A stretch of DNA of 64,000 bases from Apostichopus japonicus (lineage: Eukaryota > Echinodermata > Holothuroidea > Aspidochirotida > Stichopodidae), in contig NC_092579.1 of the NCBI RefSeq assembly GCF_037975245.1, positions 15,634,178 to 15,698,177 of the forward strand. The letters are read 5' to 3'. Shown here one piece after another: positions 4,133 to 64,000 of the stretch (position 1 is the first letter of the stretch; each line of letters begins with the position of its first letter). Under the pieces are notes generated by a model. The model had not been told where the DNA came from. It made no database searches and saw only the letters and a list, made by a program, of their open reading frames with translations. Both the position numbers and the translations under genes were made by a program.

Positions 4133-7100
4133 CTAGTTAACACTTATACCACCTCCACCACATAACAAGTCTGACAGCTCACCTAGTTTAAACCACTTTG
4201 GTACTTGTCCCTTGGAGTTACTTGATGAGGATGTATTTCTGGACTGAGAGGCAGGTTTCCTTTTACTCTGTGATGGGGTGGCTGTCTCTGATGAAGAACC
4301 GGAAGATCCGGAGGATGGACCCGGCTGACTTAATGATGAGGAGGAGCGTCCGACAGATGTTGCATCAGCTGACGAAGATGACGGACTATAAACGGAAAAG
4401 GAACGAGATGTAGAGCAACAAATAATAATTCGATAGATTCGCATTCTGTGTGTGATCGGATGATGTATTGGGCATTTTGCCAAACAATTAGGCATTTTGC
4501 CAAACAATTGCATTACGAAACCAAAAACCCCTTGAGAGAAACTGTTAGTTTGATTTCATATCTAAGATTAAGCTTTAAAGTAGATTTCTATCATAATTGT
4601 CTGTAATCATAATCTCCCTCAACGATTTGTACTTTGTACTCTGGTACAATTTGGAAATCTAGTGTTAGTGGCTAGGTACAAGATACAATACTTGTACTCC
4701 CTCTTCAAGCCTTTAACTCATACCGAGGTAAATTCTACTTGTACTCATACTCATGCCTTAGTACCCATACGACAAGGCTGGTTCAAAGTTTACACATGTG
4801 TCTATTTGTGACTAATTACAAAGCAAGACAGGTTTATACACAAGTTTACAATTATAGGTTCTACAGAGCAAAAGGCCTGTGAGGATGATAGAATGTGCAC
4901 TCCACAACGACAGCAGAAAAACACAAGATTCATTCTGTGAAGAACTGACAAATAGTTCTCTTCTTCAGGGGATTCATATCCTTCAAATGTTTAATTAGAT
5001 GTTAATTAGGCAATCCACTTTAAATGGCTTTAATAATAAAGATTGAAATGAATTGATTACCTCTCATTGAAGACCGTTGCCACTGCTTCAGCCAGTGTTA
5101 CCTTTCTCTCGAGAGTTCCTTCGGATAAATATTGATCTTTAGGAGAAAAAACAAGATAATTTCATCAGCACCGCATGATTTTCCTTAGTGTTTTGTTCAT
5201 AAAATCTACACTACTGTACTGAAAGGATAACTGTAGGCAGAATTTTAGTCTTGATATATCGTAGTACAAGAAACTCTGAATGACAGTATTTGTTTTGATA
5301 GCCATTCCAGTTGTCAAGATATGATCTTTAAACTATGCTTAGTCTCTAGTACACTCCTTTAAGGCTAAAGAGATGATGACATCGGCAATCTTCGGAGCAG
5401 GCTCAAATTAAACTGTTAATCCATTGTTCTATAGATTATTATAACTTTCATTTTAACCTCATATGACTTTTGGAAAACACTCAAATAACACAAACTTGAA
5501 TAATTGCATTGAATAATTGTATAAATGCATTATAAACATGCTATATCAGGGCATACAAGTGTTACGTTTTTCCTTCTAAGTTCTGTGTTGTATGTGGAAA
5601 AACTGACCAGTGTGTAAGACTGAATAATCTTGCAGGGATCTGTTGTAAGACCATATGGGTCTTCTTGGCTTTCGGAAACTAGTTTTCAACCTTCGAGTTG
5701 ACTCGGGTCGGGTTCATGCATGTCGGGGCGGGCAGTGTGTGGTGGCCTAATTTTCTTCCTTTCTTAGGACATTAAAATACAGAGTCAAACAAAGGCATCA
5801 AATCACAAATACTAACACACTTCTGAAGAATAAGATGAAGTATGACATTACCTTGTGTGCTGTCAGATCCAAAGTAAACTTTGGCAGTTGGGAAGAGATT
5901 AGCCTGTAAACAAAAACATTCAATATGACTTTATTTTTTGTTCACTTATTCCTGTTTCTATCATCAAACACAAATCTCACCCAGTGATAGTTACTACTAT
6001 TAACTCCTGCACCTGTCAGAATCCATCAGAACAAGTAGGGTGTTATTGAACCTCATTAGTAACCTTAAGACAACAGCCAACTACATGTATTGTTAGCTGA
6101 GGAGTGTTAGCTCAGTGGTTAACGCCGGTGCCTTTCAATGGTAAGGTCCCGAGTTTGAGTCACTCCATGATTAATGTATGTCGTCCAGTTACAGAGTTGT
6201 TGACAATTGACAATTCATAATCATGGACGTTAACTATGAATCTAAGTAACTGACTTCGGTCAGCTTGCGGCTTTGAAAAGCCAATGATGGCTTCTTCGCG
6301 AGTTCCTGCTTGCAGGAGTATCTTAAATACATACATACATACATGTATGTAGAAACAGAAGGTCTTATCAAATCCCCAGAAAAATGGATGAAGCTGCATT
6401 TCAGGGAAATTAAGACTTACCTCAAATAAGGTCTGTGTTTTGTTTTTCAAGATGGTCTTGGGTGGAGTGGTATCTAGGTATGAGAGAAATGATAAGTATT
6501 ACATTGATTAAAATGATGTAATCTTTAACCACAAAACAAGAACTTCTCCATCAAGCAAAGAATGTACAGAAATCCTATGCCATCATTCACTACTAAGGTT
6601 GAGCTGAGATTTATTAAAGCTTCTGTTGAAAGCTAAGTTGAAACTGAGCTACATTAAAGGCATTGCAGACTCCCCCCAAACTGCGTGCAGCGCTCTGAAA
6701 AGGTTAACTTTCCGTTGCTTGCAAGTAAAGTTTTCTTCTTGTCGCTACAAGTTGCAGACAGTAATGAAACGTGATACCTTGTTATCTTTTATCTAGACCT
6801 GAGATGTCCATCGCTGCTATGTACATTGTTGTGGGTATTGACCTTAGCTGTATGTATTGACTGTACACTAGTGTCTAATTACCGAACGGTAGCAAGCTGT
6901 GTGTGTATTTTCTGGGATCAATGGTGGTGTCTAACACTTCTGTTACACCTTATTCGAAACTAGGTCAGATTACCGGCATGAGACGTTTCTTTGTGTGCGA
7001 GTCGTCACACCCTTTAAGATACAGATATTGTTTACTACACTATGCAAGACTAAAGCTATCGTTCACCAAAAACTAGGGTGGATCCAAATCCAAATTAAAT

Positions 7101-8768: not shown

Positions 8769-11700
8769 CTGGAATAAATATAATGGTATACATTTACAAC
8801 AGTGTTATAAGTTTTGAAGTAATCAATATGTCATTTGCATATTAACTAGTACTGAAATAAACCTTAAAAGCATTATTGCAACACTGCTCTTCCTTGATAC
8901 AATCATAGCATGACAAGAAAGTAGCCAATAGAATGAAAACATTTTATGATTCTGAACAAATTTTCCCATGTCAGACCATATTTACAAGCTCGCTCTACAA
9001 TGTGAAAGACACAGAGTGGTATTATAGCCTGATCTTAGTGGGACGATGACCTGATCTGAGTGGGACTATGACCTGATCTTAGTGAGACTATGACCTGATC
9101 TGAGTGGGACTGTGACCTGATCTGAGTGGGACTGTGACCTGATCTGAGTGGGACTGTGACCTGATCTGAGTGGGACTAAGACCTGATCTGAGTGGGACTG
9201 TGACCTGATCTTAGTGGGACTGTGACCTGATCTGAGTGGGACTGTGACCTGATCTGGGTGTGACTATGACCTGATCTGAGTGGGACTAGGGGCCTTATCT
9301 GAGTGGGACTATGACTTGATCTGGGTGGGACTAAGACCTGATCTGGGTGGGACTGTGATCTAATCTGAGTGGGACTGTGACCTGATCTGAGTGGGACTAT
9401 GACCTTATCTGAGTGGGACTATGACCTGATCTGGGTGGGACTAAGACCTGACTTACCTTAGAATATTTTGCCATTTGTTTCTGTTTCTTTGAATCCCTCA
9501 TTGCTTTGGTTTCTAACGGCCTATCTGAGGACCTACAGGTGTGAAATAGAGGAAATGCATCAAAGCTTGTAACATCACATGAAAACATTTGTATTTTGTA
9601 CAAAAAGAATCCCAGGAAGAGGTTTAATGGGAATTACTAATGATCTGTAATATAACAGCATGTTAAGATGAGTGTTACAATCCAGGGCTAACACAATTCA
9701 TTAGTTATGCTAAAATATAACATAACAGCATGTTGAGATGAGTGTTACAATCCAGGGCTAACACAATTCATTAGTTATGCTAAAATATAACATAACAGCA
9801 TGTTGAGATGAGTGTTACAATCCAGGACTAAAGCAGAATAAGCTGGGTTTGCTTACTGGCGATTCTTTAGATCGGACAAAAGTCTTCGTATATCTTCAGC
9901 TGTTGTGTCGAAAAAGCTGTCTGGTAGATCCTGAAAATCTTCACTAGAGGGCAGTGTATCACTAGCATCGAAGACCAGAACTTTTCTATCACAGGGCTGA
10001 AAGGAAAGTCAGTGGATACAAAGTTAGTACCATACTGACAATTTAAACTCAAGTAAAATTGGATAAACTATGAAAAATCCTACAACAATGCAATGTATAA
10101 TCAAAGATTTCTTTATTGCTTGATAAGTTGCAGTCTTATTTGAAATAATATTCAGGTTTTCAGGTTACCAAATGGAAATGAGTGCTTTTAATGACAAACT
10201 AAACCACTAAAAATTGTGGAAAGAAGGGAAACATACACAACATTATCTTTGTTAGGTCTGCTCAAAATGGGACACTTACATGAATTCACTTAATATTTGT
10301 GCTACCAGAGATAGAACATATCCCTGCCAACTAAGTCAGCGTTGAACTGTGAAACGGTGTACACAAACACAAACAGGAAATGCTAATAAAGTGTTTCAAT
10401 ACAGCAATTTTAATACAAAATGAAAAAACAAGAACATCACCACCAGAAAAAGTATTTACTTCCTTACAATATAATATCGGCAGTATCAAAACTTTTCTTT
10501 ATTCATTCATGGCCAAACTTACTTTGGACAAATCTTCTGTTTCAGCTTGTTGCCTGTGTTTCTTTTTTCTTTCTATTTCCTGCTGTGTTTCTGGGAACTG
10601 GAATGAAAGGGGGAAAATTAATAAGGTTTTGAAAAACTTTCGGGCCACACTTTGACTACCTGTGCTTATAAATATGAAGTCATATTGGACTATTGAAAAG
10701 TAGCAACAAGGAAGTCAGCAAAACTTATCAATGCAAAATTGAAGAATTACTAAAAGGGAAACAAATAGAGAACAACGTGTTTCACCTTGAATTCTTGCTC
10801 TGGCAAAGTCGGAAGGTTTGGATGATTAGTAGCCATAGCAACCTGTTGTGCTCTTAACTGATCAGCTACTTCATTCATTTCCTTCATCATCTGAAAGAAA
10901 AACATCAAAAGTAAATATGAAGCGCTTTTTGAATTCCATCCGAGCAATAATTCTTCTGACATCCTCAGAACAAAATGATGCCACAGCTGATTTTTTACAA
11001 TGTCGTCCTGTGTTCCGAGACAATTTAATTTCTTTTGGAAAGAACAAAGATATTTATCAGCTAGAAATTGGAGTTAGACATCCATCACCTTAGGACTGCA
11101 AGTCCTGTGCTCCACTAACCAGCCCCTTAGTTGATGGTGATCTATATGAACCAGTTTGGTGCTGTTGGGAGGAAGGGGGGAGGGAGGGTGGGAGCAGTCT
11201 GGAGTCACAGTAAATAGGCATGGAAAGGATTTCCCAATCAGCATTCAATTCATGAATTACTTTTACCGGGGTGGATGAAGGATTTTCAAACGAGGGGATG
11301 TGGCCTGAGGTCTTCAAAGCCACTGTCAATATAGGGAGTAGGGTGGGGGGGGGGGGAGTGTACATCCTCTTGCAGATCAAAATGAAGATTTAGAAGCTGT
11401 AAATCTCATTTCAGTACTACCTACCTCTTCTTCTTTCTTCATAAGTAACGCTATTCTCTCTCTAGTCCGTTTGTCTAGAGAGGCCGCTGATGCACCATGG
11501 GACTGCAAGAATGAATCCACAGACGATGTTTCGTTACTGCTCAGTGTTTCCATGGGAACCTCTGATCTCCCAGCAGCGGACGACTCATTTTGCGTTGTTG
11601 CCTTGGGAACTGCACCTGGCGGGGATTGCTTGAAGTCGTCTTCTTTGTTGGACTGACCACTGGCAACAACTTCTGATTTCATTTGTACCTCTTCTGTCTC

Positions 11701-41000: not shown

Positions 41001-44000
41001 ATTGAAAGTTGATCATACCATTTACCTCCATGATCATACAGGCCTCTTCACTCTGTAGAGAACATTCCTCTCCCATCTACTACATCGCTAATTAATTTGA
41101 CCAATTATCTCCTCTCACTCAGAGATCGCCTGGAGGCATGCAGACTACAGATATCACTTGTAGCCAATCATTGGGTTAATGCTGACTTCATAGGGTAGAA
41201 CCATCTTACAGTTAGTACTGTGCAGTCATTTAGATGAGGTTCTAGTCGAGCTACAGTATGGATGTATCCTTGGGTAAGAAGTTTAATTTACAGTGAGGGT
41301 AAACCTGTACTACTGCTGCGGTATGTGTGATTTGATTACCGTCCTCATGCAACGATTTTAAAGTAATACATTATACCTCCATGAGGGATACTGTACTCAC
41401 CTACAAATTTCCCTCCACTAATATAGAAAGACTTGGAAATTACACCAGTACAACTACTACAACAGCATGAGTACCAGTACAAGTACAATTCCTCTTGGTA
41501 TGAGTACAAATTAAGAACTAAGCATGTGTTTGAGTACGTAATCTTGCACAAGTGCCATATATAATTAAATTTCAAAAATGCCCAAAGAACAAGTGCGAAT
41601 GCAAGAGGACAAGTGGGAGTAAGGTGAACTGAAGAACTGCTAGATTGTGAGTCAACAAATGGTCATCTTGGTGTCTAGTGGTCACTGTTACCATCAACTT
41701 TCCAATATGTAAATACAGTACTGTGAAGTAGTAACTGTAATAAGTCATTTTACTGTACACAGATGTATGACAGGAAGTCCATAGATAAAAAAATCTTTGA
41801 GCCGAAGAAATACAGCTCATCACTGTATACGTCATGAAATATGATGCACATGACCTAATTACAAGTAATATGACTTTCTAAAGTGTAGGTGTGCCCTGCC
41901 CCTCACCCCCCCCCCCACCCCCATGAATACCAGGATACATTTTCTGAAGGTTTTTCAAACTGTTCAAGTAATTGATAGTGCAATGGCCTTAAAGAGACGG
42001 GTACAGTAGGTAAGGAACAGGGAATAATTTATTCCGTATCGCAATGCAAAATTCTTTACAAAATGCTATGCAAAATGGGTAAATTGCTATGCAAACTGTG
42101 CAAAGATGCATTTAGCGGTTTTTGTACACAGTAAAACATGTAGCATTTTATTTTATACAATCAAACAAAAGTTCAGAGCTATCAACACTGCTATGCAAAA
42201 TGTAGACACTAAATAAATTACCTGAGGAAATCAATTCAATATCTGATTTCCTTTCCCAACCTCTCATTATTTGGAGATTTTATCTAGAAACTGAATTTAC
42301 TGTACCGTAAATTATACGAAAGTACTGTACCGTAAATTCCGTAATACCGTAAAATACAAGTAAAAGGAAGACAATCGGTTTTACTTAAAAGCTGATGAAT
42401 GTGTTTATGTTCTTTATCCACTATCTTTCTAGATTGCATATATAATACACTAAATTGAGTCATCATAAGATTAAAGGGTGTGAAGACTCGCGCAAAAAGA
42501 AATGTCTAATGCCGGTAACCTGACCAAGTTTCGAATGAAGTGTAACAGAAGTGTAAGACACCACCATCGATCCCAGAAAATACACACACAGCTTGCTACC
42601 GTCGGTAATTAGACACTGGTGTACAGTCAGTACATACAGAGCTGCAGTCAATACCCACAGCACAGTGTATAAACGATACAGCGATGGACATCTCAGGTCC
42701 AGCTAAAGATAACAAGGTATCACGTTTCATTACTGTCTGCATTTTGTAGCAACACGAACAAAACGTCACTTGCAAGCAACAGAAAGTTAACTTTTTCAGA
42801 GCGCGGCACGCGGTTTGGGGCGAGTCTTCAATGCCTTTAAAGCATGCAGGTATGCTCGACAAACCTTTCTCATCTTCCAAGCTACGGTAGATATAGCCAA
42901 CATTCCTATGAAAGAGAACTAAATAAAATGTTGTGTTTTTCTTCTTTTTTTTCTTGCAACATTTCAATGGTACTAATGATGACTCATGTTAAAGTTTGCA
43001 TGTGTTATTAATGCATTAAAATGTACATCAATTCGTGGTGCTGAATTGCACATTAAGTTTAATATCTACTCTAAATATGATTCCAGCGTACAAATCTAGC
43101 ATTCGTTGTTGTTGCTAACGTCATCAATAAATATACAGTAGCCTTTAGCTGAGTACATTCAGTAATATGGCTAGATAAGCCTTTGAAATAAACCACAAGG
43201 CCATCCGTCTTTACCGCTAATCTGGATAATGAATCAACTACAGTACTACATCCCTCAAGGGGGTTGTTCTTACCTCCCTTCCAATATTACTTGTGTTTGT
43301 TGGTCGACCAAACTGCAAGGCTGCCTTGCGATTTTAGCATCGCTTACTCATGAATAGTACCTTGGTATATAGATTTAAAGCTTCTTCTGTTTATTCAGTC
43401 ATTTTCAAATTTTAGTGAACATTCCTGGTGTGTTTTCAGTAGGTTAAATTAAAACAGAATAGTACGAACGAACTGCAGCAGATATGCAGTTAACTTTAAA
43501 TATATTTTCTTTTCATATGATCACTCACATTCTATATGGTACGACTCTTACGACCCGTGTGGCAAAGTCAGGTTAACCAGCAACTTAATGCTGCATTAAA
43601 TGCGTTTCCATAAGGTTGTCTATACAATCGGGGTTTTTTTGGTACTAAATATGCGTATTAAATAGTCAGAAAATTATGAGGATATACCATTTCTTATATT
43701 TCTTTTGTATGCAAAACTTTTGGCCCATTCATAGAAATCTTGCAAATGTAAACAAAGGCCTTTGTTTACCTTCCTTTGTTAAATCATCAATTAATCACAT
43801 ATACAGTACTGTGTACGCAGTGCGATTAATACGGCTTGCCGATTCAGTTTCATACAGTATCTTTACATACAGTAACTGTACAAGACTATAAGTATACAAA
43901 GCTACAGCTCAATTAATCACTACGTCTTGCACCAATATTACATAATGTCTGTTCCAGACTTCACGAATTCACCATAGATGCAACCTTGGTCAAAAGTTTG

Positions 44001-47000
44001 TAGTCTTGAAAAACATGTACCGGTAGTTGCTTCTTTGAATGGTTAGATTCCAGAGGAGGAAGTGGACGGTGCCCAGAAGAGCAGTGCTAAAATGTTCCAA
44101 TCATATCGCTTAGATAGATAGGAAAGTGCATATATATGTAGACGGGGAGACAGGTAAGAGAGGAGCTAAGTTAATTTCACAATTCTCAAATATGTATTGA
44201 TCGATTTCAATACCCTTGAGTCATTAATTGCATTGTCCATGGAGGTCAGTCCGAGGAGGTCAGTCCGAGGAGGTCAGTCCGAGGAGGTCAGTCCGAGGAG
44301 GTCAGTCCGAGGAGGTCAGTCCGAGGAGGTCAGTCCGAGGAGGTCAGTCCGAGGAGGTCAGTCCGAGGAGGTCAGTCCGAGGAGGTCAGTCCGAGGAGGT
44401 CAGTCCGAGGAGGTCAGTCCGAGGAGGTCAGTCCGAGGAGGTCAGTCCCAGGAGTTCAGTCCCAGGAGGTCAGTCCCAGGAGGTCAGTCCCAGGAGGTCA
44501 GTCCGAGAAAGTCAGTCCGAGGAGTCAGTCCGAGGAGGTCAGTCCGAGGAGGTCAGTCCGAGGAGGTCAGTCCGAGGAGGTCAGTCCGAGGAGGTCAGTC
44601 CCAGGAGGTCAGTCCCAGGAGGTCAGTCCCAGGAGGTCAGTCCCAGGAGGTCAGTCCCAGGAGGTCAGTCCCGGGAGTCAGTCCGAGGAGGTCAGTCCGA
44701 GGGGGTCAGTCCGAGGAGGTCAGTCCGAGGAGGTCAGTCCAAGGAGGTCAGATCAGCCAGAAGTCGTGAAGAATATAAACACAAATATAAATCATCAATC
44801 AAAAAAAACAATCAGTAACTGTATGCAGGATATAAATATATTATCGGAATTGCAAATATTATTGGTGCTTTTTCGATTAATTCCAGGAAACTGAAGTGAT
44901 AAATTTGAGTTTTAGCAAGTATATTTTCTATGCTCTGGCATACTGTATATGTTTTAACAAGTGGCTGAAATTGTGAATTCTAGGCACGGAAGTACAGTAT
45001 CACATAGAATTAGAACTATTTAGTAATTAACAAATTGTACAGTACCCAAAATGGACCAACATTGCAATCCTATCAAATTTCATAAAATAAGAACTTGTAA
45101 GTGAGCACTTTAAATGAATTCACACACACTCTCTAGTGAACCCTCTCCCTCTCCCCCCCCCCCCCCTTCCCATTGTAAGCACAAAATTTGCCCCATACTG
45201 TACCAGCCAGGTATCATCCTCTGACTCAGCAAATAGAAGTATTATAATTTGACAATGTTGACATCACATACATGCGAGGCAATCATGAAGCTACAAGTCA
45301 ACAGTTTATACAGCAACAACATTTGTTGAAATTTTACTAAAAATAGCATTTATAAAAAAAAATGTTTTTCATTTCATTTGTCCAAAAATAAACCTATCAT
45401 CAGAACTTGAACATGTATGACACAGTTCATTTGCTGACCCAGAAAATACAGACAGAACTCTAAAGTAATTTATTTATACTTTTTCCTTTCTATATTCGAC
45501 TTTAATTTGGATACGGTATATTAAATATCTTGTTAACACAGTATGCCGAGAGCTCTTTGTATAAAGACAATGACAGCTTAATATCTGTGGCACTGTGACA
45601 GTACTACTTACAAACATTTGTATTATGCTCCAATTACGTAAAAAGTGTCTATAGCATGAGCTGCAGAAAAGCTCCGATTTAAATGGACACAGAAGTCTCA
45701 GGTTTCACTCAATTTACACAATGATGGGGAAAAAACAAAGAAAGACTAATTTCCAAACTTCCCCATCATTCCAATCATTTCTATCGATTACTCGGCAGCT
45801 CGACAAAATTAGTTGAAATCTATAGGTACTGTTTCCGAGGGCCCTTCAGTCAGACTTAACATCATTTGTAGATCGAACAATACTTGTACGATCCTGTTGT
45901 CCTCAATTCGGTGTGTTCATCTGAAGCAATTTGAATAATTTCAGCCTTTTTTTCCCCGAGAAGATTTGCGAACTTGAGACAACCTCTGTCCCAATTCTTA
46001 TAGTGGAATGTAAGCAACGATACAGTTGGCAAATTTGCTAGCAAAATTGTAGCGGCCTGAGGCTACTGTACAAGTGGATGTTTTCATGCGAAATGGAATT
46101 CAGACCTTCTAAAGATTTGCCAGATTTATAGGCTTCTACGATACTGACGAAATCTGAAAGCAGCAGGGTACAGTTTCTAATTTTAATGGTGACAGACGTC
46201 CATGTTTATATCTACTGCAGAACGATGTTCCCCCAAGTTAAAGACCAATGACCCTTAGACGACCCACCAGATATCCACCCATTGGAGTCAAAGCTCAGAA
46301 TCTATGACAACTAGCTTGGACTATGGCTGTGCGCTTGCAGCTAAAAGCTGCAGATAAATTTGCCGAAATGTGGAAAAATTCTGTGACCTATTTCTTAATT
46401 GTTTGAGACCCACTTAAATTGGGTCTTAAGTTGTAGAATGGTATTCAATTGCAATTGCAGAATAAGCCTAGTTGCCTTGTACACAGCTGGAAACGCACAG
46501 TATGTACCAGATATTGTATGAAGCACTTTGATGGTTTCATTTACAGTAAATTCTGTGGTTTAGTAAACAATTTAATAATTTAAAAGCAAATACCCCTACC
46601 GAAACTATATATTATTCCATAAAAGTGTTTGTGCAAAATTATGCAAATGGATGTTGTAAACTTGTTTCATCATACATTCATCCATACATTACTTTATATT
46701 GTACATTAACACACAATCTTGCAAATACATACAGTACATACATGCACCAACTTACAGAACGCTAGAAAAACATTAAAAATGTTTATCAAAGGTAGCAACG
46801 TCAAAGGAAAGAGAAATGGGGAACACAAATGAAAATAGAGTGATTTGCTATTAAGAATTAAATATTGGAAGAAGTAGACAAAAGCACATGTCGAAAAAAA
46901 AAATGTATCCAAAGAATCTAATCAGAGCTAGGACTTACAGTAGAACAAAAAGGCAGACCCTTTGAATATTCATGTTAAGAACTGCTCATGTTTTGGAGTG

Positions 47001-50000
47001 TGTGTTATTTCATTCGGAAGCAATTCAGTTTCTCTAACGACTCGAATACCTAGAAAATCAATCTCTGAGCTTGCCAGTAAAACTGATTTCATGATTATTA
47101 TTATTATTATTATAATTATTATTATCATTTTTATTATTATTATTATTATTATTGTGTGCAGCAATAACCAGCAAGTCTTGAATCATGACCAGTATAGTTT
47201 AATCAATTTGCAGCGAGATTATTATTTTTTATCGGTCATCCTTGAATTACAGACTGATTTTTGAGTCTTCAGGCCATAGATCAAATTACTATTTGGTCTA
47301 TAATAGCTCTATGTTCACTGTGTACCACCCTACAGCCAGGGACGGTGGAAGAGTGGTCAATCTGGAGGGGCATCATAGGGGGGCAGGTGTAATATAATGT
47401 GACTTTCATTTCAGTGGGAGGGGGGAGCAAGCCAAAAAGGTACCTCAAAAAGTTTCCAACAAAATGGATCCTCTGGGCATTCTGTACCACAAATTCCAGT
47501 TTTTTCAACAATAGGGCACACATATGCGTTTTAATCATTTTTTTCTCTCTTAATATTGCAACAACAAGGCACGTTTTTCCAACAAACTTGACGAAGCAAA
47601 TAAAGCCAAAGGGCACATACTGCTGTATAATTTACCAAAGTGGAAAACAGAAACTTTTCGTTATCAAAACAGGGCCACTTGTAATTTTATGACATGGGGC
47701 AATTTTAAGGGTTTTTTTCACACTTGTATTAACTGGGTATTAGGCACATGCCTCCTGTGCATCTCAACTCCCCTCCCCCCCGGATGCACCACCCCTTACT
47801 AAAGCTTATCTGACTTTCCAGATGAGATTCTACCTTTATCATTTCGTTTATGACAGGTCTAGACCATCAAACCTAACACTCCTCTGACTTTGCCAGATCA
47901 GATTCTACGATTAAAACTTATAATCTCCTCATGATAATGGAAGCAGGAAGTCTCAGGGTCAGCGTTAAATACTTTCAACCTGGTAATTTCATTCTTCCAG
48001 ATTTGAGCAATAATTTTGCATCGAAACATAAACAATTCGAACGATTGTACCCTAGACTAATAACGTTTAGTTCATTAACCTGCCAGCCATTTGCCGGAAC
48101 ACAGCTGCATGTCGTTAACAGATTTTGCAGATGATTAAAGCAAAACGCATTTCTGCTAATTCAAGTGCAGTGTATGGCAATGTATGGACAAAACCACTTT
48201 AAAAATAAACTGTTTGATGAAGGAAGATTTTGAGCTGCAGTAATGACATGACGAGCAATCTGCTGATATTATTAAGCATCAAACTGTCGACACTGTTTAT
48301 TGGCATTCACCAATTAAAGCCTTCCAACCTTGATAAATATTCAATTCTACCGAAGTAAAATGATACGAGACAGCATATGGCCTATATATCATCACTGAGG
48401 ATGTAAGTCACTCTGAAATTATTTATTAGAAAACGTTTGCGATATGTAGAAAAAATTGGGTAAACTTAATTCTGTAAGCACAACTTGGGAGTTCCTAGGA
48501 AGGGGCAGGGAGGCGCTTAGAGGAGAGTGGATTGGTGTGGGTATTTACGAGCAACGATACTTACCTGTCTCTACTCTACATCAGCACTTTCAAAATCAGT
48601 TCCAAAAGATAAAATATCCAAAACTGATCTCCAAAATGTAAGAAAGTGATAGAAACAACGGGATGAATATTCCATGGAAAATGCACATAGCTTCACTTCT
48701 GGATGGTGGATTTGAACGGTTGAAAAATTGGGGGGGGGGCGGTTGGGGTGGATACCAGGGAACTATGAACAGTGGGGCAGTGCTTAAAACTTTTCCAGTC
48801 ATGTACAGTAGCTTAGGTAGTAGAAAGAAAATTGCTAATGTAGAATGGAGAGAGACCTGTAAGAGAGGAAGCGAAGTTAATTGTACCCTCCTTTCCAAGA
48901 GATCAGAAAGACCAAATCAGAATAATTGTTGATGTACTACGTACCAGCTGCATCTACAGACTCTACGTGTGCTCCTTTCTCTATCAGAGCCTGTGCACAC
49001 TGGAGGTTTCCATTCATGCATGCACTATGTAATGGAGTCAGGCCATGATGAATGGTTAGGTTCGGATCCTGTTAAAGAAAGGAAAACAGAAGAATACATC
49101 AACACATACTGTACCATACACCCCTGTCTGGTTACTCAAGCGTTTTATCTTGGTGACCCCGATATTCCTCTGCATCCTCTTGGCTACTCTCCAGTGGCAA
49201 ATGTTGGGGAAAGCCCAGTCTTCGGGGAGGCGGTATCCCCCTCCCCCTCCCATGTCCCTCTTTGAGAAATGTTCAACACTTTTCCAATTTTTTCCCACAA
49301 ATATTGGCATTATCTTATTTTTATCCAAAGTTTTTAGTGACCCTAGAAACAGTTTTAGGGATCCTAAAAATTGGCTGCACTCACCCTGCCAACCCTTAAT
49401 ATGCAGACCATACACAACCACGCTCATCTTCTCAACATCTAAGAAAGGACAGACTTAAAGTCTGTTAACAGCATCCCCTCTAATGAAAACGATGCAATTA
49501 GGATATACTGTATGGTGGAATGGTGACAGTGGTAGTTAGTGGTAGGTTTTTACAGTTCACTTCATATCTTTCCTTCATTCAAAATACAAGTTTCAATTCC
49601 TTATTTATAATACTTGTAAATCTTCTTACAAGCATATATTAGAAAATTTATCCTAGATGAAGCCAGGGTAATAAATATCACAGATTACTTCATCAAATTT
49701 ATCTCCTTCTCAGCCTCACAATTCTCTTGCGTTGGAACTGCAGCAATACAATTTCAATTTTTTTTTTCAATTTCTTTATTCCAGTATAAATGATAACATT
49801 TATAAATAGGACACATAAAAATGATACATAAAAGACGTAAACATGTACAAAAATGAAAGCATGAACAAAAACAAGAAATAAGATAGAGGAATAGAAGTTT
49901 TAAAGATTAAAGATTAAAAGTATTATAACAGAGATTCTAACAACCCATTTTGAATATAAATGGCTGCTCTGTAGATAAATGAGTTCTTAAAAAGCATAAT

Positions 50001-53000
50001 TCTAAAAGATGGCAAGATAGTAGGATTACGTAGATTGTACTTGCTGGTTCTATTGCACAGAGAGATCAACTCGGAGTGAAGTGGGTGATCTTTAGAACTA
50101 TGTATATTCTTAGCTAGTCTTATGAATTCATTTTTAGCAGCAGTGTTTACTTTACCAACAAGGCTTTCATAGTCGAGATTAAATATTTTGGAGCAGTATT
50201 TCAAGAAACTTCTAATTCTTTTCTTGTCCTTTTCAAGTAGAAAGTGATACCAGACAGGAACTGCATACACAATCACTGGCAGAATTGATGAGCTGAAAAC
50301 CTTATCTCTTACATTAGAATGAAAATAAGGAGTAATATATGCCAACGTTGATACAATATAATACACCTTAGACATCGATTTAGATATATGTTTAGTAAAG
50401 GTTAACTTGGCGTCAATATCAACTCCTAAGTACATAGTATGAGACACCCGCTCAACAATGGAGCCTTGAACATAAGTTTTCTGATCCCTGGTCTGAATGA
50501 GACCTTGATGTTTAATGTTAATGTTTTCAAAAATTATTTCTTTAGATTTCTTTGGATTAAGTAAGAGGTTCTTCTGCTCACACAAATTGACCATATTATC
50601 AATACAGTATTTATAGTCATTTTGATTTTCAAGGTGTGTCCGCTTTGAAATGTTACAGGATATGGCTGTATCATCAGCGTACTTAATTACATCACACCCC
50701 ATTGAAGAACGTATATCATCTGTGTATATTGTAAAAAGTAACGCAGATAGAGGACCTCCCTGGGGGACTCCCACTGTAATATTTGACTCCTCTGAATAAC
50801 CTTTCTGTAGCTTGACTTGTCGAGACCATCCTTGTAAAAAATTAGCCAACCAATGTATAAGCCAAGGCTCATTGATAAAACTACACAAACTTTGGATTAA
50901 CCGATTTGGTAAAACCGTATTAAAAGCACTTGAAAAATCTAAGAATAAAACTTTAGTGACTGTTGTGTCACTCTGATTTAAACCAGAAACAACACAATGT
51001 ACGAGCTTGAGTATAGCATCTGTGCAGGACACGCCTTTTTTGTAGGCAAACTGATTTTTATCACCGTGTGATACGATGGCCTGCGTCAAGTATGGAAATA
51101 ATAATTTTTGCATACAGTTAAAACCAATGCTGGACATGTCAATTGGTCTAAAATCGTTTACAGATGTTGGAATAGAGATTTTAGGCACAGGTGATGTTTT
51201 AGCATGCTTCCATAGGGACGGAATTGAATTCTCATGTAAACTTACATTATATAAATTAGTGAATATGCCAGCTAATTCTTCAGAGCAATACTTGTACACC
51301 CACCAGGGAATTTGATCAAAACCAGACGCAATTCCTATCTTAACAAGTCCAAATTGTCTTTTTACATCTTTCTTTAGTATTACTGGTGGTTCAGCAGTTG
51401 ATAGGTCTGGTAGTATAAATGAAATATCTTTGCTCGAAGCATCATTAAAACGTCCGAAGTGTTGACTTAATTTTTGGCCAAACTCATCAGTTACCAAGTT
51501 TCTTTGCTGTTCATCTGGTTTCCGTATTGATTTGAGTAGATCCCACAGAGACTGTTTGTCTGTTGTTACCTTTTGAAAGTATTCATTCCTCCTCTTGAAC
51601 ACATGTTTGTTTATTTGCCTCTGTAACCTGTTCCGTAGAGTAGTGTCACCATCATCAATTGCTTCCTTTTTCTCTTTCTCCAACTGCTTGATCTTATCAT
51701 CGGCTGGCAATCTTTTCATAACTTCTGAGTGTGACATTGTCCTATAAGGAATGCAGATATCAGTTGTAAAATTGATGTAAGATGATACTACTTGTGTCAA
51801 TTCATCTAAGGTGTCACACGTATCTGTAAAAACCCTCCAATCTGTTGAATCCAACATCACTCGTAAATTGTCAACATTACTCTTCCTGGTGTCTCTTTCC
51901 TTTGGTCTTGGTATCTTTTGAACTTCTCGATAACGTTCTGTGTATCGTGGCATAATTAGAACACTGAAATGATCTGATGTAGCTATAGGATGCATTTTCT
52001 TGACAGTGAAGTAACTCCAACCTTTAACGTACACAGCATCCAAAATGGTGTTAGATCTTGGGAAGGTGACAAAATTTACGAGGTTGTTGTAGCCCATTGT
52101 TTCGAGGAATGGTAAACGGTCCCTGTTGAGATCCCCAACAATAATGATATATGAACGCGGATTCATGTGATAAAGCACTGTAGTACCTGTCTAGTGAGGT
52201 ATTGTGCAATGACGACATATATAGCTAAGTCTGTAGGCCTACTGTACATTAAAATGATCTTTGCCAAAGAGCTGAGGAACCAAGAAATAACAGCAATTGT
52301 AACAATTGATGAAGGCATCGCTTGCTTTCTACAGTGACCTGGTTTTCAAATATGCAGTTGCTAGATAAACTTCACTAAAACCATCACCAGATGCAATTTA
52401 TACTATAAATTCACTGTGGGGAGTTTCAAATACATTATTTAAAATGGTCTGGAAACAGAGCTCAGGGATCTATAGATAACATAGCAAAATGTTATGTACA
52501 CAAAATGGCCACATTGCTACACAAGTGCACATAGCACTTACATTTCCAATTTTATGCAGAGAACCAGGTTTCAGTTTTTTATGAGTTCTGACAAAAGTCT
52601 TAAACCTCTAAACTGCTATAAATACAATTATGAACACTAAACTACAGTATCTCCTACAAAGATATTCATTTTAAATCCATCCACCCCCAATTTATGGCAT
52701 GTTTAAAGGCTTACTTTACTTAGAACAGACTTCTGTAAGACTATGTAACATTTCCAAACTTTATACTTATTAGCCTCTAAGCATAAAAAGGTAGACTTTT
52801 CTATGGAGATATGAAAACAAAGAGGCAAATATATATAAAAAAAATTATATTATTATATTTATTTATTCACATGGGACCCGGCCTAATGCAACAGAATTAT
52901 TAAACATGTACTCTGCGAAGTTAATCTTCCTTTTACGATCTAATCCTCTTAGCATAATTTTCAAATGGAAAAACAGCCTTTAATGTATTCTTTCTATAGG

Positions 53001-56989: not shown

Positions 56990-56992
56990 TAA
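56990..56992. repeat. Target-site duplication TAA (left)
   Basis: TAA directly before the inverted end TAGCCCGGCAGCCC; repeated at 61056-61058. Confidence 0.6.
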
Positions 56993-58030
56993 TAGCCCGG
57001 CAGCCCAGTGCACTTTGATCAAACGAACGAGGTACCAATATCTGAGTATTGGAACATTTGTGGAAAAACCCAGTATATCCAAAAGTGGATCATTGCCGTG
57101 GTCCCTCTGCTGCATGTGGCCCCTGGGGCCGGTTTAAGGGGGGCCAAAAATGCATCTGATCAAACGAACGAGGTACCACTTGAAACCAATGTCAACTTAA
57201 TGTATGAATGCCACAAAGTACTGAATGGCCTATGCCAGACAAATTTTCCGCTGCTAAGGGCCTGCCAGACGCCCCCAAATATGGCCCAAATGCCCATTAG
57301 GGTAGCATTGACCCAAATTAAATATGCAAGGTACCCCTCAAAACCGGTTTGGAATGTTCGGGTTGATCTTACAGACTATGACAGAATATGGCCCAAATGC
57401 CCATTAGGGTAGCATTGACCCAGATTAAATATGCAAGGTACCCCTCAAAACCGGTTTGGAATGTTCGGGTTGATCTAACAGACTATGGAAATCATCATGC
57501 CAGACAAATTTTCAGCTACAAAGGGCCCGCCAGGCGCCCAAAAAGGGCCCCTTAAAAAAATGCATCTGATCAAACGAACGAGGTACCACTTGAAACCAAT
57601 GTCAACTTAATGCATGAATGCCACAAAGTACTGAATGGCCTATGCCAGACAAATTTTCTGCTGCTAAGGGCCCGCCAGATGCCCCAAATATGGCCCAAAT
57701 GCCCATTATCGTAGCATTGACCCAGATTAAATATGCAAGGTACCACTCAAAATCGGTTTGGAATGTTCGGGTTGATCTTACAGACTATGGAAATCATCAT
57801 GCCAGACAAATTTTCTGCTACAAACGGGCTAACAGACACACTAAAAAAGGGCCCCCATATGGGCTATGATCAATCACAGTTGGTACCACACAAAACCAAT
57901 ATTAAATGCAAAGGTACTTTCCACAGAGTAAAGAACTGCCAATGCAAGACAAAATTTCTTCTGCATAGGTCCCACCAGATAGAAAGAATAGGTGGCCCAA
58001 TGCGGCCCTATATGGGCCTAATGAATTGTA
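56993..58030 (+). repeat. Left inverted arm of the foldback element
   Basis: Outer modules are well conserved with each other and with the right arm. Each ~150-bp half-module ends with gccagacaaatttt, gctgc.aagggccc and gccag.cgccc. The innermost ones (from about 57870) are diverged and shortened. Open frames here (57008-57412, 57618-57869, 57733-58059) are repeat artefacts. Confidence 0.88.
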
Positions 58031-59804
58031 TATTGATGCAGACTATATGTGCCTTGTGACATGATATGTGTAGCATTCCACAGAGTAAAGAAATGCCAAT
58101 GCAATACAAATTTTCTTCTGCAAAGTGCCCACCACATGTAAAAAAAAATTATGAAGTTTAAATAGTTAATATACCACAAGAAACCAATCTATAACAATCA
58201 AGAACATCCTGAATTATTCAAATTCCTTCCCGCTGCATAGGCCAATGCAATAATGAGATTAGTATACTAGTAGGTGTATCAATTACTGAACATTTCATTG
58301 AGCAAAACTAAAATGACGCGAACTCAGTCTTCGAGGGAGATCCTGGCAGTTATATTGCATTCTCAAATCCATTCTTTTTCCTTTTATCCATTCTTTTTCC
58401 TTTTATCCAGTCAGTACTTTGTATCGTGAGCAGTGTTTAACTTGGCAGTTACTTTGTTTCGCTGGAAACACTGGAGCAGATTAAAACCAGTTTATGTATT
58501 GTAAATAAGAAACCCAAAATCATTTTGTATCTTAACACACTGCGTTTACGTTAGCATTGTAAATCTACAAAGTTTAAAATCTTGAGAAAGAACGCTTAAG
58601 GGTCATCTTAAGACATACATGTAGTCGAACAAAAGAGATTGTTTTGTTTCTTAAGCTCAGACAAAGAAACAAAAATCAAACAATAGTGAAAATGCTTTAT
58701 AACGTGTACTTAACGATAAAGGTTTGGGTTGAAACTGTCCAATATGGTTTTATAAAGATACATAATTGAAGCATAGAAATGTCAATGTACCTTTATGCTA
58801 GGTACACTCTTTAAAGGACTTAAAATGCTAAGATTGAACAAACAGATACTGATATCACCTTGTATGACTCCATTCCTTGATACAAAATATAAAATGATTA
58901 ATTGGCCTATATTACTCCATCTTGGTCTTTTAGAACTTCCATCATTACACTAATTCAATTCGAATAGCTTGTAACAAGTCCAACAAATAGATGTGGCATC
59001 CATTTTTCAGAAATATGAATGCTAGATGAGGGTTTTTGTTTTCATCTATGAAGGAATCTTTTACCTTTCAAGAAAGTCATCTTGCTAGTTTAAAATGTAC
59101 TAAAATCATAATTGGCAAAGATAGTAACAAAAGATCACTATGTGATTACTCTGAACATGACACATGTTAGGTTCGAAGTATAAGAACTGCAGAATTCATG
59201 TCTCTTGACAGTGATTAAACACTGGAGTGTGTGCATTGTAAAAAGACACTGCATTTGCCATTCAGAAAAATCTCAAAAGAATAATTAGTAAGTTTATGAA
59301 AATTAAGTATTTCCATGAACTTGATTCTAAAAAGACAATGGAAGCTCAAATCTATGTTTCATTGTCGGAGTCATCACTCCAAGATGATTCAGTACTTGAA
59401 TCATCGGCATCAAACTCGGAAGCCACGTCTGGTCGGCTACTTTGAAAATCTTTGCTCAGTTCCCCCTCTTGGAATAGATGATCTGGGAGAGCCGGTCCCT
59501 CAAACCAGTCAGGGCTGTAGCACCCATTCTTGCTCTTCCAACCGTAGTTCTGTGGATCCAAGCCAGGCAAGACTTTTCCTCAGAGTGTTAGAATTATAAT
59601 GTGGGCAACTGTAATTCTTGCCCAGACCAGCAAATCCCAAAATATTTAGAGGCTTAGGTGAAAGTGTTATCTTTATTTTGCTTAGAGCGGCGAATAGCTA
59701 AATACGATAAAACACTGGTCTTAAAACACTGGTCTTGTGTAGAGTAACTCCAATTTATGCTGGAAATAATATAATCATGAGCTTGAAATGTCATGTTACA
59801 AGGC
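58031..59804. other. Spacer of the foldback element
   Basis: AT-rich, single-copy within this window. It contains one noteworthy minus-strand frame at 59352-59579; nothing else was recognised. Confidence 0.6.
59352..59579 (-). pseudogene. Fragment of a GW-motif protein with acidic tail
   Basis: An open stretch bounded upstream by TGA encodes LDPQNYGWKSKNGCYSPDWF and GPALPDHLFQ, then an acidic tail DADDSSTESSWSDDSDNET and a stop. The pattern (D/P..YGW, then W..GPALPD.L) recalls the C-terminal part of uncharacterised metazoan proteins linked to mobile DNA; this is memory-based and unsure. It has no start codon. It may be the last exon of a gene carried by the foldback element, or a remnant of one. 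Confidence 0.4.
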
Positions 59805-61055
59805 ACATATATCCAATTCCTTAGACCCATATATAGGGCCACCTATTCTTTCTATCTGGTGAGACCTATGCAGAAGAAAATTTGTCTTGCATTGGCAGTT
59901 CTTTACTCTGTGGAAAGTACCTTTGCATCTAATATCGGTTTTATGTGGCTCCAAACCGGTTTTGAGTGGTACCTTGCATATTTAATCTGGGACAATGCTA
60001 CGATAATGGGCATTTGGGCCATATTTGGGGCATCTGGCGGGCCCTTAGCAGCAGAAAATTTGTCTGGCATGGGTCATTCAGTACTTTGTGGCATTCATGC
60101 ATTAAGTTGACATTGGTTTCAAGTGGTACCTCGTTCGTTTGATCAAATGCATTTTAGGGGCCCTTTTGGGGCCTCTGGCGGGCCCTTTGTAGCAGAAAAT
60201 TTGTCTGGCATGATGATTTCCATAGTCTGTAAGATCAACCTTAACATTCCAAACCGGTTTTGAGTGGTACCTTGCATATTTAATCTGGGTCAATGCTACG
60301 ATAATGGGCATTTGGGCCATATTTGGGGGCGTCTGGCGGGCCCTTAGCAGCAGAAAATTTGTCTGGCATGGGCCATTCAGTACTTTGTGGCATTCATGCA
60401 TTAAGTTGACATTGGTTTCAAGTGGTACCTCGTTCGTTTGATCAGATGCATTTTTTAAGGGGCCCTTTTTGGGCGCCTGGCGGGCCCTTTGTAGCTGAAA
60501 ATTTGTCTGGCATGATGATTTCCATAGTCTGTTAGATCAACCCGAACATTCCAAACCGGTTTTGAGGGGTACCTTGCATATTTAATCTGGGTCAATGCTA
60601 CCCTAATGGGCATTTGGGCCATATTTGGGGGCATCTGGCAGGCCCTTAGCAGCGGAAAATTTGTCTGGCATAGGCCATTCAGTACTTTGTGGCATTCATA
60701 CATTAAGTTGACATTGGTTTCAAGTGGTACCTCGTTCGTTTGATCAGATGCATTTTTTTAAGGGGCCCTTTTTGGGCGTCTGGCGGGCCCTTTGCAGCAG
60801 AAAATTTGTCTGGCATTGGCCATTCAGTACTATGTGGCATTCATGCATTAAGTTGACATTGGTTTCAAGTGGTACCTCGTTCGTTTGATCAGATGCATTT
60901 TTGGGCCCCCTTTAACCGGCCCCAGGGGCCACATGCAGCAGAGGGACCACGGCAGACATCCACTTTTGGATATACTGGGTTTTTCCACAAATGTTCCAAT
61001 ACTCAGATATTGGTACCTCGTTCGTTTGATCAAAGTGCACTGGGCTGCCGGGCTA
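59805..61055 (-). repeat. Right inverted arm of the foldback element
   Basis: Modules recur with junctions at about 60140, 60440, 60740 and 60890 (spacings about 300, 300 and 150 bases), so the longer unit is a dimer of the ~150-bp half-module. The innermost part (59805-59945) pairs with 57890-58030. Confidence 0.88.
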
Positions 61056-61058
61056 TAA
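61056..61058. repeat. Target-site duplication TAA (right)
   Basis: TAA directly after the inverted end GGGCTGCCGGGCTA; matches 56990-56992. Confidence 0.6.
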
Positions 61059-62323: not shown

Positions 62324-63537
62324 CTAATTCTCCTCTTTTTGCATCGACTTCCATATATCTTCCCAATCCCATTTCTTGATTGGTTTCTTGAAATCTTCAA
62401 GAAATTTGATAGTTTCTGTTAAATCACCCACATTGTCAATATCCACGTTCTCTTTTCCATAGTCTGAGATTGTATCGTCGTCTTCCATGAAGTAAATCTC
62501 CGAGTCAAAGTCTTGGACGAGTCTCTTCGGTAGAGCTATCGGTTTGCTGACATCTTCTCCCTTGGCTTTCTTCTCTTGGTAAACCAATTCTTCCAGGAGT
62601 GGTGGCATTCTCACATACTTTGGAACCTGCTTGAAGTCTTCTGCTTTAGGTGTGTAAGAGCAAAAGTCTTCTTCTTCACTTTTCCTGATAAGTTTCCATT
62701 CATTCAAATGCCACTCTTTGATTTTCACCTCTAATCCATCTTTGCTGTACCCTTTGAATCATGAAGAAAATGAAACAAGAACCAAGAAAGAACATTCTTG
62801 CGACAATTTTAGATGTTGGTTATTGGCCAGTGACATACAATGAGATACTTGTGCTCAGTAACATGCCCAGAATTTCCAAGTTGGTGAGGTAGGGTTGGGG
62901 GTGGTGGGGAGGGGGGGGTTATGGGCAAACCCTAAATCTCCCAACTGATTTAGGTCAAGGCATGAACATTTATGACAGGACATATTTAGCCTGAGAAGTG
63001 GTCTACCTCTTTCCCGACTGAATTGAAACACCCACCAACAAAACATTCTTCCCCTGACTATCGGTGTGGCCATGGCCCATTGTCGAAAAAACATACTACA
63101 CACTGCTGTTGAAACATGACACAATCGCTGTCTCATAAATCTAGACAAGTTGTCTGATGATAATTGCTTGGTTTTGGCCAGTGACTCACAATTTGTCCAT
63201 GTGACGTTTTTGGTGTTAAATCAAATGAAAAGTTTAGTACTAACCATGTTCTTTAGAGTGAAAATTGCTAGGTAAAATAAATAGCATGTATGTCATTGAA
63301 GAAAAAAGAGGATATAGTTATCAATTACTTGATTCATTGTGCTAATAATTGCAAGCAGTTTTTGAAATGTGCTGTACCTTCCTAGAAGTCTTGAACCATG
63401 AATGACACTTGAGGAAAGATAAACCTGGACTTTTAAACATCAATGCAAGTAAATCCTCACTGTGATTTATAAGTTACACAAACAGCAAATTTACCTTTAA
63501 TAGTAGGGACTCCCCAAGCTTCACCATGATTGAGATT
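62324..63537 (-). CDS. Unrecognised acidic protein, last two exons (5' part beyond the window)
   Basis: Exons 63495-63537 (donor TAAAG|gtaaat) and 62324-62751 (acceptor gattcaaag) join in phase 1. They encode NLNHGEAWGVPTIKGYSKDG and LEVKIKEWHLNEWKLI, then about 120 more residues to TAG. The product is Lys/Glu/Asp-rich, with a proline stretch YVRMPPLLEELVYQEKKAKG, an acidic patch MEDDDTISDYG and a Trp-rich end KKWDWEDIWKSM. No membrane segment or known domain was recognised. It looks like a conserved cytoplasmic or ciliary-type protein by composition only. Acceptors and donors are good and the last frame is long and clean, so the gene is probably real; further exons should lie beyond 64000. 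Confidence 0.7.
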
Positions 63538-63822: not shown

Positions 63823-64000
63823 CAATTTTCAATTTCCTTATTCCAGTATAAATTATAAAATTTATAAAAAGGACACATAAAAAAAAATGATACATAAGAG
63901 ACGTAAAAATGTAAAATCATGAAAGCATGAACAATAAAAGAAATAAGATGGAGGATTAGAAGTTTTAAAGATTAAAAGGATTATAACAGAGTTTCTAAGA
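63823..64000 (-). mobile_element. Second copy of the LINE, 3' end only (runs off the window)
   Basis: Matches the 3' UTR of the copy at 49753-52190 almost base for base (cttattccagtataaat, ggacacataaaa, gatggaggattagaag). The same stop codon is at 63981-63983, preceded by codons for LETLL where copy 1 has LESLL. It is in the same orientation as copy 1, about 14 kb away, and lies upstream of the exon at 63495-63537, probably in that gene's intron. Confidence 0.92.

Follow-up and report, generated by a model that had tools for sequence, protein, structure and literature searches.

A mobile foldback element of Apostichopus japonicus with arrayed arm repeats and a putative transposase-nuclease parent

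The window analysed here is a stretch of 64,000 nucleotides from the sea cucumber Apostichopus japonicus (contig NC_092579.1), and the subject of this work is a foldback transposon within it. Positions 56993-61055 constitute a 4,063-bp insertion that opens with TAGCCCGGCAG at 56993, closes with CTGCCGGGCTA at 61055 and has TAA on either flank (56990-56992 and 61056-61058), read as the target-site duplication. Its ends, these duplications and the termini found across the genome mark it as a complete non-autonomous element, and the boundaries given in an earlier note, made from the letters alone, proved exact to the base. Both arms are inverted and longer than 1 kb. Their outermost parts (56992-57279 and 60769-61056) are 95% complementary across 288 nucleotides and the terminal 98 bases are identical, in line with the 100 or so identical bases that the note had claimed; the longest inverted match in 10 mononucleotide shuffles of a 5-kb stretch was 18 nucleotides (E-value up to 10). 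Monomers in the arms measure about 142 or 158 bp (roughly 150 bp) and are of two kinds, A and B, that alternate to give units of about 300 bp (computed period 302); the note had given module sizes of about 150 and 300 bp. Arms of about 1 kb or more, tandem modules and a flanking target-site duplication, the structural features of a foldback, are all found in this element.

The left terminus (56993-57015, plus strand) carries TAGCCCGGCAGCCCAGTGCACTT, for which end comparison gives TAG(A/C)CCGGCAG in other copies. It opens a terminal unit (56993-57133, plus strand) that site spacing places in a 141-bp register, next to which self-comparison delimits the A and B monomers of the left arm (57134-58146, plus strand). 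The innermost monomers of the element are degraded, at 57867-58146 in this arm. The centre (58147-59787) is AT-rich and mostly without repeats. It is followed by the A and B monomers of the right arm (59788-60914, minus strand, period about 300 bp) and by the right terminal unit with the inverted terminus (60915-61055, minus strand). A 22-base core, TGATCAAACGAACGAGGTACCA, has eight exact copies in the window, every one within the element, and none in 100 shuffles. On the plus strand of the left arm it lies at 57016-57037 (copy 1, element position 24), 57157-57178 (copy 2, element position 165) and 57567-57588 (copy 3), and on the minus strand of the right arm at 60124-60145 (copy 5, innermost), 60423-60444 (copy 4), 60725-60746 (copy 3), 60870-60891 (copy 2) and 61011-61032 (copy 1, terminal). 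The constant core of the earlier note is thus real, but it is confined to alternate monomers, namely those of kind A and the terminal units, whereas the shorter AGGTACC is present in both kinds. This word occurs six times in the left arm (57030 in the terminal unit, 57171, 57329, 57436, 57581 and 57738; plus strand) and eight times in the right arm (59968, 60125, 60266, 60424, 60568, 60726, 60871 and, in the terminal unit, 61012; minus strand). The left arm has a 107-bp irregularity at 57278-57487, and its spacings are irregular: 141, 158, 107, 145 and 157.

The element is mobile. In a search space of 671.6 Mb on 35 contigs, the 41-base terminus with at most three mismatches was found in 209 places and its reversed control in none. 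The first 308 bases of the element have at least 131 genome matches (40 of 219 candidates scored). Twenty stretches were fetched, 14 with both ends and six, left uncounted, with one end only. The window element and these 14 copies have a perfect 3-bp duplication in 15 of 15 cases, with the sequences TAA, TTG, GTA, GTT, TTA, TAT, TGT and ATA, and three further two-ended copies, L041 (ATA), L042 (GAA) and a gene-bearing element on contig C12 (TAT), are equally perfect. For this family, hereafter family 1, the total is 18 perfect duplications of variable sequence in 19 two-ended copies. One copy, L014, is inserted within a 52-53-bp tandem repeat, and two of its three neighbouring repeat units present the empty site with a single TTA (...GGTCCTTATGTGG... 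and ...GGTCTTTATGTGG...); the third unit, ...GGTCATAAGTGG..., is without TTA. The mobile family with shared ends anticipated by the earlier note is therefore real. Its prediction of different spacers failed, as the same centre of 1.55-1.73 kb is common to 12 of 15 copies, at about 85-99% identity depending on the aligned piece, and is gone from the other three (L012, L013 and L021). In L014 the centre holds an additional insert, largely of low complexity. In the 15 copies each arm has between 2 and 7 of the 22-bp cores, except the left arm of L021, in which none was found.

Two observations point to recent amplification. Over 3,894 bp, L041 and L042 agree at 99.2%, and a 75-residue frame in the centre, described below, has 95 genome matches of which 16, on 13 contigs, share the identical score of 157.0 (e.g. 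C1:1352084, C3:4904520 and C7:4110552). To judge from these likenesses, the burst of the family may well be recent. L009 (C11:7.49 Mb, 3,456 bp) and L013 (C11:11.04 Mb, 976 bp) have near-identical flanks; they may represent one insertion that was duplicated, one of the pair having probably been shortened later. Across the outer 150 bases, the two ends of an element differ by a mean of 0.0153, against 0.0272 between elements (17 elements, L021 excluded; none of 10,000 permutations as low). This greater likeness within elements suggests that the arms of one element are homogenised.

The centre carries on its minus strand the 75-residue frame with its stop (59352-59579). Genome-wide, this frame is matched 95 times: 61 matches are full-length and the others partial, split or distant. 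The window element is 91% identical from its position 504 to 2573 (57496-59565) to the C12 stretch L060, where the likeness extends into a gene whose frames measure 188, 296, 218, 469, 172 and 140 residues. The right end at L060 and the corresponding left end are 21,359 bp apart, both exact at the 41-mer and each flanked by TAT, which delimits an element of 21.36 kb; its left arm is broken by a 1.2-kb interruption. The comparison shows the window element to be the product of a deletion in a gene-bearing element, and the 75-residue frame to be a relic of the C-terminal exon of its putative transposase-nuclease gene. Changes in this frame were counted at 25 loci whose hits are near full length and free of indels, with 12 distinct sequences among them (three hits with indels were dropped). 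The singletons are 12 nonsynonymous, 4 synonymous and 2 stops, and the shared ones 3 nonsynonymous and 1 synonymous, where 72/23/5% would be expected without selection. For a 270-residue frame of a second family, presented below, the singletons are 35/11/3 in 10 distinct copies and the shared changes 3/1/0. Because these ratios are near the expectation without selection, both frames are regarded as relics, and a coding role for the 75-residue frame was rejected. A Pfam search of this exon returned nothing useful.

A search with the 469-residue piece of L060 gives, besides a single self-match at 100%, 52 matches at 20-53% identity. Among them are frames of 1,551-1,572 residues, with E-values from 9e-29 to 2.5e-21, and another, of 1,552 residues, at 3.5e-7. 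L060 is the sole family-1 copy with a long gene that this search found. Several frames of 1,551-1,572 residues, of the same transposase-nuclease kind, are present at L062:1502-6154 on C20 and at other loci; foldback arms were not seen in the 9.9 kb read at L062, and element termini were looked for there and not found. An alignment of 10 relatives, hand-picked from the matches, displays the conserved blocks HEEADT, SPDTDV and FTGCDSvSsFYGKGK. All three are present in the L060 pieces, and the family-2 frame has the last block only. When a profile of eight relatives was compared by hhalign with 14 archaeal FEN1 sequences (of 53 loci), the score was 33.7 with an E-value of 0.0013, SPDTDV being paired with SQDYDS and TGCD with GTDYN; 20 column-shuffled controls scored at most 22.5 and a reversed one 14.6. 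The protein is thus predicted, as a supported inference, to have a FEN1/XPG-like nuclease domain. A CXC-like tail is found in 2 of the 10 relatives (best E-value 1.5e-6). Pfam yielded nothing useful for the L060 pieces or for the L043 and L044 frames, and weak hits only for L062; over the presumed transposase region of the latter the sole one is DUF6589, with an E-value of 0.0074, below the cut-off. Viral contigs scanned with A2 gave 66 pattern stretches, none of them confirmed.

The second family (L043, L045 and L046), reached through distant matches of the 75-residue frame, is also of foldback type, with ends TAGTCCGGGAGCCCAG and arms of modules of about 300 bp. Its duplications, CTA and TTT, are of 3 bp in both two-ended copies, no right end of L046 having been found within the fetched stretch. 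Its frame, of 271-285 residues, corresponds to the 3' part of a protein from the family described above. Blastn detects no relationship between L043 and the window element. When L041 and L046 are aligned globally over their first 640 bases, there are 370 identities in 617 aligned bases (about 60%) and the score is 311, against a mean of 123.8 (standard deviation 12.5, maximum 161) in 50 shuffles. In all three left arms of family 2, AGGTAC lies at 36, 177, 319, 477, 619, 777, 919 and 1077; in L041 and L042, regular copies of family 1, its positions are 38, 179, 321, 479, 621 and 779 in either arm. The regular copies of the two families demonstrably share the same spacing from the end inwards, 141, 142, 158, 142 and 158. 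When the arms are taken together for 18 copies of family 1, the most frequent spacings are 158 (49 times), 141 (36) and 142 (35), then 144 (9), 52 (9), 174 (8) and others. Compared without gaps, one dimer from each family gives 36-39% identity in register, the average for all shifts being 25.6%; this low identity implies that bases were gained and lost while the spacing was unchanged. A random-sign test on the gaps between families gave P values of about 0.001 to 0.008 but is partly circular and was not relied on, since an alignment anchored on AGGTAC forces the gaps to a net of zero.

The reading that we favour, and consider likely, is that of a non-autonomous cut-and-paste transposon, produced by internal deletion of a longer element with a transposase and a FEN1/XPG-like nuclease, most likely of AcademX, and provided with arrayed sites in its arms. 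The gene of the larger element would encode a big transposase fused to the nuclease-like part, which may be active as such. Acting in trans, this protein would recognise the TAGnCCGG ends together with the array, and the element would be cut out and inserted with a 3-bp stagger. The evenly spaced arm repeats are probably landing sites for the transposing enzyme: each arm would be an array of putative transposase sites (AGGTAC, with the 22-bp core in alternate monomers) spaced 141 and then 142/158 bp apart. Several subunits would bind along it at fixed distances and build a multi-subunit complex, like the one proposed for Galileo, and such binding could be the reason why the arms are kept and their spacing conserved, possibly under selection. 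Arm length would change by whole 300-bp units, probably via unequal exchange. The placement in the AcademX lineage, made by published description from the 3-bp duplications and the FEN1/XPG-like motifs, is held with moderate confidence. More tentatively, and with the balance in our judgement somewhat against it, the AGGTAC distance (141, then alternately 142 and 158) could be a selected ruler for a multi-subunit transpososome, the spacing outliving a divergence of about 40% between the sites. A nuclease-bearing transposon lineage with long phased arrays as ends belongs to this same idea and is put forward just as guardedly.

Several observations weigh against these interpretations. The hhalign probability for the FEN1 comparison is 18.8%, and Pfam and PDB sequence searches with the frames and the relatives gave no XPG or FEN match, which is why the nuclease is graded no higher than above. 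The comparison with AcademX was one of published description. The gene frame at L060 is interrupted, by one stop between the 296- and 218-residue frames and by frame changes between the others; these could possibly be introns or damage. The right terminus of the C12 element ends in GGTCAA and not in GGTCTA, and our reading of this element covers its first 1.85 kb and last 10.2 kb (L124, L063 and L060), the remaining 9.3 kb lying outside. L061 departs from the family twice: its flanks, TAT and TAA, make an imperfect duplication, and 31 of the 32 comparisons of its ends with those of other elements show more likeness than the comparison of its own two. The family-1 spacing is uneven, several arms having 144, 145, 107 or, where a site is missing, 299-300, and most left arms of this family start with 141, 158, 142 rather than 141, 142, 158. 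Finally, equal spacing could in part result from common descent and homogenisation, not from selection.

The best surviving alternative, to which we give a clearly minor share of belief, places the element elsewhere, in an unnamed superfamily or in one of the others that duplicate 3 bp (CACTA/EnSpm, PIF-Harbinger, Zator), the nuclease-like gene merely resembling AcademX. The descriptive nature of the AcademX likeness would agree with it, as would DUF6589, the one hit, weak and below the cut-off, that covers the presumed transposase part of L062; Zator likewise makes 3-bp duplications, according to the accessible part of PMC10045372. Against it, CACTA/EnSpm termini are CACTA or CACTG, from which the TAGnCCGG ends differ, and PIF-Harbinger duplicates TWA, which TTG, GTT, GAA, TGT, GTA, TAT and ATA, found alongside TAA and TTA, do not fit. 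The C-terminal nuclease-like domain also argues against the other superfamilies. It is improbable that the C12 gene is an unrelated transposon or a host gene trapped in a foldback whose arms moved otherwise. In favour of this, a single long-gene copy was found, with the interruption in its left arm; against it, the window element carries the C-terminal exon of that very gene, collinear over 2 kb, this exon recurs in dozens of copies (61 of 95 matches cover all 75 residues), and in family 2 arms of like plan enclose the 3' part of a protein of this kind. The arm plan also resembles that of Mutator-type foldbacks such as Drosophila FB and Tetris, a group with duplications of 8-11 bp. Most described foldbacks are placed in Mutator, and Tetris makes duplications of 8-10 bp (accessible text of PMC4079207), against 3 bp in 18 of 19 copies and a single TTA beside L014; a Mutator-type origin was ruled out on this length and is very improbable. 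A satellite-type inverted repeat or an assembly artefact, which arms of tandem repeats with satellite-like higher order might recall, is ruled out by the 209 dispersed termini, the target-site duplications and the empty site, and is the least probable reading of all.

Other features of the window were also recorded. An exon of MRP-S34 (mitochondrial ribosomal protein S34; E-value 9e-15) lies at 62324-62758 on the minus strand, about 1.3 kb from the right end of the element. At 49923-52190 on the minus strand, a 755-residue open frame that includes a reverse transcriptase domain (RVT_1, E-value 5e-25) is probably a non-LTR (long terminal repeat) retrotransposon copy with a long open frame. Two tandem arrays are present, one of 14 bp (36.6 copies, 44241-44751; open in all three plus-strand frames) and one of 22 bp (about 20 copies, 9014-9451), as well as two pairs of dispersed repeats, at 6654-7017 and 42471-42840 (inverted, 88% identical) and at 49764-49940 and 63826-63998 (direct, 86% identical).

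The reason why foldbacks retain kilobase arms is unsettled, and in the part of PMC3688188 available to us Galileo has extra binding sites and no spacing rule was seen. This arm question becomes testable here, since one genome holds both a gene-bearing copy and two diverged families whose regular copies share a base-exact spacing. If true, the proposed reading would place the foldback architecture in another transposase lineage and favour a repeated origin of such arms. The earlier note held that this is not an ordinary terminal inverted repeat transposon, which suits the unusual arms; the enzyme side is like a known, AcademX-like, cut-and-paste kind. It also saw in the element a candidate for an undescribed family. 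This is plausible, as we met no Academ foldback in the literature searched, but the foldback plan itself is known: Galileo and Tetris already provide tandemly repeated arms and extra binding sites. Among the papers listed by one search of this literature, which covered the spelling 'foldback' and not variants such as 'fold-back', none has Academ and 'foldback' together. Nor was an AcademX-like foldback whose spacing follows a conserved rule met with in the literature searched, Repbase and subscription papers lying outside. Since Repbase lay outside the search, names for these families may already exist.

The nuclease of AcademX is of XPG type. In the accessible text of PMC10045372, AcademX makes 3- or 4-bp duplications and two Academ lineages encode helicase and nuclease; the likeness thus lies in 3-4-bp duplications with a nuclease gene there, and 3-bp duplications with a FEN1/XPG-like domain here. 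Compared by this description, the present element may differ in its arms of more than 1 kb, made of phased 142/158-bp monomers. Curated bivalve Academ elements have a mean length of 5,565 bp in the part of PMC10294476 available, whereas the gene-bearing copy here measures 21.4 kb, interruptions included. The accessible parts of PMC10799480 and PMC3627910 present helicase-bearing Academ only and were not used as support. Galileo, of the P superfamily in Drosophila, shares with our element long, internally repetitive inverted repeats, and these arm repeats bind its transposase domain and offer extra binding sites (PMC3688188, accessible part). It differs by its P-type THAP transposase, and no sequence relation to the element described here is claimed. 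The length of the Galileo duplication also differs from 3 bp. The TU elements of sea urchin are foldbacks of a marine invertebrate with repeated outer domains, built of 15-bp outer repeats and flanked by 8-bp duplications. Tetris of Drosophila virilis is a non-autonomous foldback with tandem repeats of about 220 bp, variable in number, in its arms; as far as the accessible text of PMC4079207 goes, it has 8-10-bp duplications and no known autonomous copy, whereas the element of A. japonicus has duplications of 3 bp and a gene-bearing copy in the same genome.

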